From positions 1 through 64,000 of the forward strand of contig NZ_RQZG01000002.1 in assembly GCF_003859805.1 (NCBI RefSeq): 64,000 nucleotides of DNA, written 5' to 3'. Positions 23,115-25,075 of the stretch are shown here, in pieces. Below the pieces are notes generated by a model. The model made no database searches. It saw nothing but the letters and a program-made list of their open reading frames with translations, and was not told where the DNA came from. Source of the DNA: Arachnia propionica. GTDB lineage: Bacteria; Actinomycetota; Actinomycetes; Propionibacteriales; Propionibacteriaceae. The position numbers were made by a program, and so were the translations under genes. Each line of letters starts with the position of its first letter. Position 1 is the stretch's first letter.

Positions 23115-25075
23115 CACGCACCACCCACCAGTGAGCCACGGTTCTGCTCACAGGGTTTTGACCTCAGTGTGCGGCGACAGCTCCTTGAAGATCTGCTCCA
23201 CGTTGATGCGCTCCGCGTCGTCGGTGAAGTCCGCGTCGCAGAACACCGCGCGAAGTGGCTGCCGCCGAGCGATGGCCTCGGCCGCCCGAGAGAGAGAGAG
23301 AGAGAGAGAGAGAGAGAGAGAGAGAGAGAGAGAGAACCGGTCACCTCACGCTGTCGGTGACAGAACATCAGTGCACCTTCCTCGACGTCATACACCTCGA
23401 GCCCATCGATGGTCTCCGTCCTGATCGGAAGCGTTGGCTCCAGACCCCAGTCCAGGAGCACCTGGAACAGCAGGTCCTCCCCGGTGCGGTCCGACTTGAT
23501 GGTGGACTCCAGCCCCGTCAACTCCGCTTGGGCCGTTGCATCAGGAGAGAGCACGACGTCGTGGAGGTTGCTGCTGTCCACGGTGAGGACCCTGAAGCCT
23601 GAGTCCTGCTGGGTTCCCGGCGCAGTGCTCTGCTCGAGCTCCGCGGCCACGTTCTTCACCCGGGTGAGGCTCATCCCCAGGATCGAGTCGAAATCGGGCT
23701 CCGGCCTGCTCAGCGGTTCTGGCAGCTGCACGGCGATGAAGCGTCGGTTGCCGCCATCCTCCTGGTTCTGCTGGAACACGGCATGGGCCGTGGTGCCGCT
23801 GCCGCTGAAGAAATCCAGCACGATCTCCTCACCCTCAGGGTTGGTCGCCAGCTGGAGGATGCGCTGGATGAGCTGCACCGGTTTCACCGAGTTGAGGACG
23901 TTCTCCGTGTGCTGGAAGGGGACGTACTTGAGCAAGGTCTTCTTGGCATCCTGGGTGTGCCCTACTTCTTGGTAGAGCCACAGAGTCTGCGGAGTCCGCC
24001 CGTTGGAGACCTCCGAGAGGAAACGCTTCACTGCGGGTGTGTTGTTCCCATCCGCTCCCCACCAGATTCGATTGTCCGCATCCAGCTCCACAAACTTTGC
24101 TTTGCTGAATCTCCAGTAGCTTCCCCGGGGAGGTCCCTGGATTACTCGCCCCGATGGCGTTCTGATGGCATAGACCCCTGCTTCATACCGGTTCCTCGCA
24201 GCAAGGTCGCTGGGCTTCCACGGTCCCCGAGGATCATTGTCCGGGTTCTTGTAGCGAGCCTCCATCTCGGGGGTTCGCGGCAGCTGGTTGGGCTGCCACG
24301 AGGCCTTGTTCCGTGCGTAGCAGAGGATGTAGTCGTGGTCCTCCGAGAACCACTGGGCGGAGTTCTTCGGCGAGTAGACCTTCTGCCAGACGATCTGGGC
24401 CACGAAGTTCTGCGCCCCGAAGACCTCGTCGCACAGGGCACGCAGATTTGCCACCTCGTGGTCGTCGATGGAGATGAAGATGGCACCGTCGTCCTTGAGG
24501 AGGTTCCGGGCCAGCCTCAGCCGGGGATACATCATGGACAGCCAGTTGGAGTGGTAGCGCCCACCGGTCTCACTGTTGGTCACCAACCTGCCGCCAAGAT
24601 CGTCGCTCTGTCCGGAGCGTTGCAGGTACTGGCTGGCGGTCTCGGCATAGTCGTCGTCGTAGATGAAGTCCTTGCCGGTGTTGTACGGCGGGTCGATGTA
24701 GATGAGCTTCACCCGCCCCAGGTAGGACTCCTGGAGCAGCTTCAGCACCTCCAGGTTGTCCCCCTCGATGAACAGGTTTCGGGTGGAATCGAAGTTCACC
24801 GACTCCTCACGGCGTGGTCGCAGGGTCCTGGTGGTCGGGATGTTGGCTGCGAGTACTGCCTTCCGTTTACCCGGCCAGTCCAGCTGGTAGCGCTCCTTGG
24901 GCTCCTCCACCGCATGATCGGACAGCTCCTGCTTGAGAGCGTCGAAGTCGATCATTCGGGTGGGGTTCCCTGCGGAGTCGTGAGCCTCGGTCACCACGTG
25001 CGGGAACAGCCCTGCCAGCTTCTCGATGTTGTCGCCAACGCCATCGGGTGAGGTCAGACGCAATCTGTCCATCAT
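23114..25075 (-). CDS. Type III DNA methyltransferase Mod with phase-variable (TC)24 tract
   Basis: 653 residues as read. DPPYNTG near 128 and DFFSGSGTT near 433 show a beta-class type III Mod. Residues 581-596 are eight Ser-Leu pairs encoded by 24 TC units. After the tract the present frame gives 57 unrelated Arg/Ser-rich residues and stops at 23114. In another frame the DNA encodes AAEAIARRQPLRAVF and on to ELSPHTEVKTL, the family C-terminus matching the second Mod, ending at 23148. With 23 or 26 repeats that C-terminus would be restored (641 residues for 23). With 25 it stops at 23164. ATG 25075 overlaps the DUF4391 stop (TGATG). Confidence 0.93.
   Translation of the reverse strand: MMDRLRLTSPDGVGDNIEKLAGLFPHVVTEAHDSAGNPTRMIDFDALKQELSDHAVEEPKERYQLDWPGKRKAVLAANIPTTRTLRPRREESVNFDSTRNLFIEGDNLEVLKLLQESYLGRVKLIYIDPPYNTGKDFIYDDDYAETASQYLQRSGQSDDLGGRLVTNSETGGRYHSNWLSMMYPRLRLARNLLKDDGAIFISIDDHEVANLRALCDEVFGAQNFVAQIVWQKVYSPKNSAQWFSEDHDYILCYARNKASWQPNQLPRTPEMEARYKNPDNDPRGPWKPSDLAARNRYEAGVYAIRTPSGRVIQGPPRGSYWRFSKAKFVELDADNRIWWGADGNNTPAVKRFLSEVSNGRTPQTLWLYQEVGHTQDAKKTLLKYVPFQHTENVLNSVKPVQLIQRILQLATNPEGEEIVLDFFSGSGTTAHAVFQQNQEDGGNRRFIAVQLPEPLSRPEPDFDSILGMSLTRVKNVAAELEQSTAPGTQQDSGFRVLTVDSSNLHDVVLSPDATAQAELTGLESTIKSDRTGEDLLFQVLLDWGLEPTLPIRTETIDGLEVYDVEEGALMFCHRQREVTGSLSLSLSLSLSLSLSLGRPRPSLGGSHFARCSATRTSPTTRSASTWSRSSRSCRRTLRSKPCEQNRGSLVGGA
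23288..23335 (-). repeat. Simple sequence repeat, 24 copies of TC (GA on plus strand)
   Basis: A perfect 48-bp dinucleotide tract inside the 3' end of the first mod gene, out of character for a GC-rich chromosome. Slipped-strand changes of one unit alter the reading frame. Tracts like this in mod genes are hallmarks of phase variation in other bacteria (phasevarions), though usually nearer the 5' end. Confidence 0.97.

Follow-up and report, generated by a model that had tools for sequence, protein, structure and literature searches.

A dinucleotide tract in a type III restriction-modification cluster

The window analyzed here comprises the first 64,000 nucleotides of contig NZ_RQZG01000002.1 of Arachnia propionica (Propionibacteriaceae; assembly GCF_003859805.1), and our subject is a TC tract near the 3' end of mod1, a type III DNA methyltransferase gene on the minus strand (23114..25078; 654 aa in the assembled, +1, frame, with DPPY and DFFSGSGT motifs). 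The tract lies in a cluster whose minus-strand order is: a SNF2-family helicase gene at the head (25733..29011), a DUF4391 gene that is a member of the operon (25075..25752), mod1, a second type III methyltransferase gene, mod2 (21237..23117; start GTG at 23117 or ATG at 23114), a gene for an AlbA_2/Schlafen plus RecG-C-like ATPase (19574..21352; true start probably nearer 21234), and res, the gene for the type III restriction subunit (16400..19504). mod2 is repeat-free, with its C-terminal domain (CTD) intact. The mod genes match Pfam N6_N4_Mtase (PF01555), PADLOC MTase_III, and EcoP15I, and have the organization of a type III Mod, that is, a beta-class amino-methyltransferase with the target-recognition domain (TRD) between motifs IV and I. 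The res gene matches PF04851, PF19778, and REase_III, carries ETGTGKTY (Walker A), DEPQ, and PDW...ETKG motifs, and has the organization of a type III Res, that is, a superfamily 2 motor plus a PD-(D/E)XK nuclease encoded in the same cluster as the mods. The cluster is predicted to specify a two-Mod, one-Res type III restriction-modification (R-M) system capable of both methylation and restriction.

The tract (23288..23335, minus strand; GA on the plus strand) is a perfect (TC)24 within the mod1 reading frame, as the initial annotation of this DNA had claimed, and its unit is not divisible by three. It contributes 16 codons, corresponding to eight Ser-Leu pairs, and is followed in the assembled frame by a 57-residue tail; re-reading of the frames bore out both numbers. 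In Mod1 the repeat falls within the CTD, after a strand ending in ALMFC and before the next helix. The G+C content of the window is 66.7%, and a scan of the window genome (3,397,337 bases, 77 contigs) for TC tracts of at least 8 units returned only (TC)24, all 17 overlapping matches lying inside it.

Three reading frames at the end of mod1

Translation of mod1 in silico with 18 to 31 repeats, with stop positions counted from the tract end, yields three endings. In frame 0 (20, 23, 26, or 29 units), the C-terminus of the family is restored: the conserved second half of the CTD, AAEAIARRQPLRAVF...HTEVKTL (23151..23285, minus strand), which is out of frame in the assembly, is read through to a stop codon at 23148..23150, 33 nt ahead of the mod2 ATG. 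In frame +1 (24 units, as assembled), translation adds 57 foreign residues and ends at a TGA (23114..23116) that shares a single base with the mod2 ATG (TGATGG). In frame +2 (19, 22, 25, or 28 units), translation ends early, at a stop codon at 23164..23166. The initial annotation correctly placed the family C-terminus within reach of 23 or 26 units, but spoke of two states kept by the sequence, overlooking the third frame.

The methyltransferase and the TRD are encoded in every frame, and the effect of the repeat is confined to the second half of the CTD. By sequence, this would distinguish mod1 from a phasevarion mod, in which the off frames lose the methyltransferase; it agrees, likewise by sequence, with C-terminal phase variation, in which a 3' repeat gives three C-termini and expression is not stopped. 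The earlier claim of a phase-variable type III mod thus survives as a frame-switching repeat near the 3' end, with the family C-terminus under purifying selection, and is not supported as a simple on/off phasevarion, since all frames keep methyltransferase and TRD.

The closest comparison is with the orthologue in Tessaracoccus sp. OH4464_COT-324 (G023), which is 80% identical, carries (TC)22, and is assembled in frame +2. Its stops lie 124, 140, and 174 bases past the tract, exactly the distances in the window mod1; the repeat number differs between orthologues of two species, 24 vs. 22. To this we add the evolution of the 45-codon tail in the six systems that carry TC at the same site. In the conserved frame, the proportion of replacement sites that differ lies below that of silent sites in 15/15 pairs; in the other two frames, it is equal or higher throughout, except for one near-tie (L020-L094, 0.23/0.26). 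None of the six systems is assembled in frame 0. Since the tail is kept under constraint although all six assemblies are out of that frame, it seems to be used often enough for its retention. The (TC)22 orthologue in another frame and the coding-like evolution of the tail strongly support phase variation as the predicted behavior of mod1, and the differences between species point to slippage within a population.

The same results bear on the explanation that decay or faulty assembly produced the tract, with mod1 a pseudogene or the repeat miscounted. Among the nine systems with a readable frame, one is assembled in frame 0 (G150), three in frame +1 (window, G098, and G057), and five in frame +2 (G023, G485, G004, G724, and G056), so that 8/9 stand outside the conserved frame, as decay would have it; moreover, the window assembly is a 77-contig draft, and in Specibacter the frame is unreadable owing to a single N at the GA tract. 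That lone N (Specibacter cremeus, L024:4670) is probably an assembly join across the repeat. However, the tail is under purifying selection, the repeats are perfect, of three kinds, and at two loop sites, the Mod1 and Res motifs are intact, and two carriers, G485 and G724, are single contigs. A pseudogene mod1 is rejected by the 15/15 tail pairs, and we consider decay or misassembly as a whole very improbable.

Tandem mods and the mod2 start

In a protein search, a frame-shifting repeat was present in the first mod of all six adjacent mod pairs (6/6) vs. none of the other relatives (0/51), counting as a repeat any unit of 12 bases or fewer, with a length that is not a multiple of three, present in 5 or more copies at a match of 85% or better. 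The CTD is covered in 33 of the 51 repeat-free relatives (Fisher 3e-7 for 6 vs. 33, with relatives that are not independent), and two of the 51 (L048 and L053) hold only part of mod. Loci were meant as one per genome; L017, L018, L019, L020, and L088 were left out as duplicates (L088 being taken as the same system as L021, with identical sequence at the mod end), and L112 and L113 were also excluded. The six tandem systems carry repeats of three kinds, occupying two loop sites: TC in the window (24 units), G023 (22), and G004 (19); GA in G724 (14) and Specibacter (N in the assembly); and the 7-mer CAACGAT, in 18.4 perfect copies, in the single-contig assembly G485. Searches for tracts in 198 genomes of the family added four tandem systems, G098 (TC17), G150 (GA14), G056 (TC16), and G057 (TC12).

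The family survey returned 26 tracts of at least 9 units in 19 genomes: 7 in tandem pairs, always in the first mod, 2 in HsdS genes, 2 in Eco57I-like methylase genes, and 15 placed outside R-M genes by eye, without profile tests. A survey of the phylum for longer tracts returned 9, in 7/396 genomes, of which the window's alone lies in a mod1/mod2 relative. The search patterns, D(TC)9 and D(TC)11, miss tracts that start with C; a second pattern was added for the family and not for the phylum.

The order helicase, DUF4391, two mods, and res recurs in five other genomes (L106 to L110), with the AlbA gene in 3/5. The Tessaracoccus locus (L111) runs from DUF4391 through res, the segment extracted having yielded no helicase, and that of Specibacter cremeus (L024) runs from the helicase through the AlbA gene, where the locus ends. 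In Dietzia maris (L021, around 4141-4230), a repeat-free mod1 is followed by the overlapping TGATGG, the first codons of mod2, and then res, apparently through loss of mod2. A tree of the N-terminal domain (NTD) and methyltransferase is poorly supported and does not place the mod1s in one clade, which fits gene conversion or several origins alike. No relative was found among viral contigs with this query; phages gave 17 records, all below 60% identity; and plasmids gave 152 matching records, two loci of which were inspected, L112 and L113, each with a single annotated mod. In Salinispora vitiensis (L037:3001-4860) the mod contains an in-frame stop.

In 10/10 tandem systems, nothing interrupts the +1 frame between the tract and a stop codon that shares one or four bases with the mod2 start (assuming a GTG start in G150). 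The current frame of mod1, which had been described as ending in a nonsense tail, thus does not look like a random dead end. One open +1 tail proves little, because the chance of an open +1 coding tail is 10-56% per system (eight systems); the product over the eight, 1.6e-5, treats relatives as independent, and we do not use it as a probability. The spacing is more informative. The distances from the frame-0 stop to the +1 stop are 28, 28, 34, 34, 40, 43, 46, 82, 82, and 82 bases, all of them 1 mod 3, and agreement among six distinct lengths has a chance of 0.004 under equal frames, which counters a chance origin of the open frame. As a control, we tried 22 single-mod entries, 21 of which had a recognised C-terminus. 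A +1 stop overlapping a start was found in 3/21, the start of the next gene being recognised by motif in only some entries; the three are two Dietzia entries, which represent one system with a mod2 remnant, and Salinispora pacifica L031. The conserved overlap suggests a possible second output of the switch, through translational coupling to mod2. Four features escaped the initial annotation: a third frame, the stop-start overlap at mod2, the association with tandem mods, and the differing repeat types in relatives.

These results raise the alternative that mod2 is the main output, with the tract setting ribosome termination on the mod2 start (+1) or earlier, thereby toggling the level of Mod2 and with it the second specificity, and the Mod1 tail being minor. 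The open +1 frame with its six concordant spacings in 10/10 tandem systems argues for this, as does Dietzia, where mod2 is seemingly lost and the repeat is absent. Purifying selection on the CTD tail argues that frame 0 matters too. In addition, mod2 has its own Shine-Dalgarno-like motif, GGTGGGTGGTG (23119..23129, minus strand), with a duplex energy of -9.4 kcal/mol, computed, like the other energies here, against an assumed 16S tail; the motif is conserved at -8.2 to -9.5 kcal/mol across the ten systems, and the other starts tried in the operon, with start codons partly guessed, gave -9.2 to +0.7 kcal/mol. The single-mod relative L031 has the +1 overlap, as ATGA, at res, and operons often have a stop codon that overlaps the next start. 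We regard Mod2 as the main output as doubtful.

A candidate switch of the Mod1 C-terminus

The CTD of Mod1 has an alpha/beta fold at the C-terminus that matches the CTD of EcoP15I Mod. A sequence profile search with the CTD alone did not retrieve EcoP15I; a whole-Mod profile aligned up to EcoP15I residue 618; and a structure model of whole Mod2 (mean predicted local distance difference test score, pLDDT, of 61, low confidence) was used solely for its EcoP15I match. According to the descriptions of EcoP15I consulted, the ModA CTD contacts Res in the structure, and Mod dimerises through its NTD and methyltransferase and can act alone. EcoP15I (Mod2Res1) has the same domain order as the window system and, as described, differs in having a single, repeat-free mod gene. 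By analogy with EcoP15I, the CTD of Mod1 would be needed to hold Res.

We consider it probable that the tract is a slipped-strand, three-frame switch of the Mod1 C-terminus in a two-Mod, one-Res type III system. According to this proposal, tract length would determine in which of three frames Mod1 ends: frame 0 would give Mod1 with a complete CTD and a stop ahead of mod2, frame +1 would replace the last half of the CTD by a foreign tail ending on the mod2 start codon, and frame +2 would give a truncated CTD. The state of the CTD would decide whether Mod1 recruits the shared Res and hence whether restriction occurs at Mod1 recognition sites. Mod1 could continue methylating in all frames, so that switching back on would be safe and self-restriction avoided, with Mod2 constantly supplying a second specificity. 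In addition, translational coupling may give more Mod2 in frame +1. Slippage within a population, docking of Res, continued methylation, and coupling are parts of the proposal that we infer, continued methylation because Mod alone methylates in some type III systems but not in others. In a fuller form, which we put forward only tentatively, the tract would be a self-safe, three-position specificity selector that directs the shared Res to one or the other recognition subunit, with frame 0 arming Mod1, frame +1 disarming Mod1 and boosting Mod2 through stop-start coupling, frame +2 giving a basal state, and methylation constant throughout.

Several points weigh against the proposal of a Mod1 C-terminal switch. 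The variation in repeat number is known from differences between species rather than within one culture, and the tract itself served to find four of the ten tandem systems. The role of the CTD in this family is taken over from EcoP15I. The TRDs of the window Mod1 and Mod2 are 64% identical, so that the two specificities may be close. Coupling may not be needed, given the conserved Shine-Dalgarno-like motif of mod2; the +2 frame, too, ends beside the mod2 start in G056 and G057 (L097 and L098); and single-mod L031 shares the +1 overlap.

The remaining alternative is an ordinary phasevarion, in which Mod1 is active in frame 0 only, the proteins of the other frames are unstable or inactive, methylation toggles, and genes respond. 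Phase variation is frequent among type III mods, at 17.4% of the mods surveyed according to the figure quoted in PMC7394358, and in two thermophile systems Mod needs Res to methylate, so that lost contact with Res could cost methylation (as reported in PMC8259958). However, the switch in mod1 lies past both catalytic motifs and the TRD, EcoP15I Mod as described uses its NTD and methyltransferase for dimerisation and can act alone, and an ordinary phasevarion leaves unexplained both the confinement of the repeats to tandem pairs and the +1 frame open to mod2. We think this alternative unlikely.

Switches near the 3' end have precedents: "C-terminal phase variation" has been described in Helicobacter canadensis and Neisseria gonorrhoeae (PMC2823697, PMC5320596), where, as in mod1, a repeat near the 3' end selects among three C-terminal frames, one gonococcal case giving a fusion with the next gene. 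The repeats there are homopolymers in other genes, and the accounts consulted report C-terminal variation for no type III mod and mention neither a tandem partner gene nor a conserved stop-start overlap. The mods of known phasevarions (ModA, ModB, ModD, ModS, and others) share with mod1 a simple repeat within a type III mod reading frame, but are described as ON/OFF switches of the whole Mod, whereas here the repeat follows the catalytic and recognition parts and lies in the first of two mods. In the NgoAV HsdS, a repeat change in the specificity subunit reportedly alters the action of the system rather than only switching it off, although this is a type I system, with a homopolymer and a different mechanism. 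MmyCI of Mycoplasma mycoides subsp. capri has a dinucleotide repeat in a type III mod, (AG)12/(AG)10, with a frame change between clone and progeny (PMC3498834); unlike the mod1 tract, that repeat is reported to start at nucleotide 320 of mod, near the 5' end, where the off frame truncates the protein, in a system that has one mod and is not actinobacterial. The helicase-bearing systems Eco86II and BspHIV, in which Mod alone is reported to suffice for methylation, as it did not in the two thermophile systems (PMC8259958), likewise carry a helicase-like gene ahead of mod and res. Compared by description and not by sequence, they are N4-methylcytosine enzymes with one mod, whereas the window system has DUF4391 between helicase and mod, doubled mods, and an EcoP15I-like motif I (GSGT). 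In a literature search that covered few subscription papers, we found no paper on two-mod type III systems, on methyltransferase phase variation by dinucleotide repeats in Actinobacteria, or on phase variation in Tessaracoccus. The survey of repeats in mods by Atack and colleagues (2018) may already include 3' repeats of this sort.

Phase-variable type III mods have been studied mainly as gene-expression switches; here the restriction arm, or the specificity of Res, may be what switches. If the selector form of the proposal is correct, restriction would vary and methylation would not, unlike in phasevarions, and the host would be protected at re-arming. The switch may allow its carriers to alter their defence against phages. 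The system would provide a clean means of finding out whether phase-variable restriction is directed at phages and not at the control of genes, and would offer a natural test of the role of the Mod CTD. It also shows several kinds of contingency repeats in GC-rich Actinomycetota.

Repeats were also seen in other genes of the window genome and of the family. A perfect (C)24 (G000:C68:137894-137917; L121:1499-1522, minus strand) is read in frame as (Pro)8 and makes a type ISP restriction-modification gene (Pfam Type_ISP_C, ISP_coupler) another candidate for phase variation among the R-M genes of the window genome; a (G)15 in the same genome (G000:C35:86294-86308; L116) lies outside any clear gene and is a possible promoter repeat. 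In other Propionibacteriaceae, TC or GA tracts occur in Eco57I-like methylases of two genomes (L056:1502-1525, L105:1498-1517), and GA tracts occur in type I HsdS genes of two genomes (L061:1501-1518, L095:1498-1517). A (GA)17 in what appears by eye to be a membrane acyltransferase gene (L065:1485-1518) is likely a surface-modification switch.
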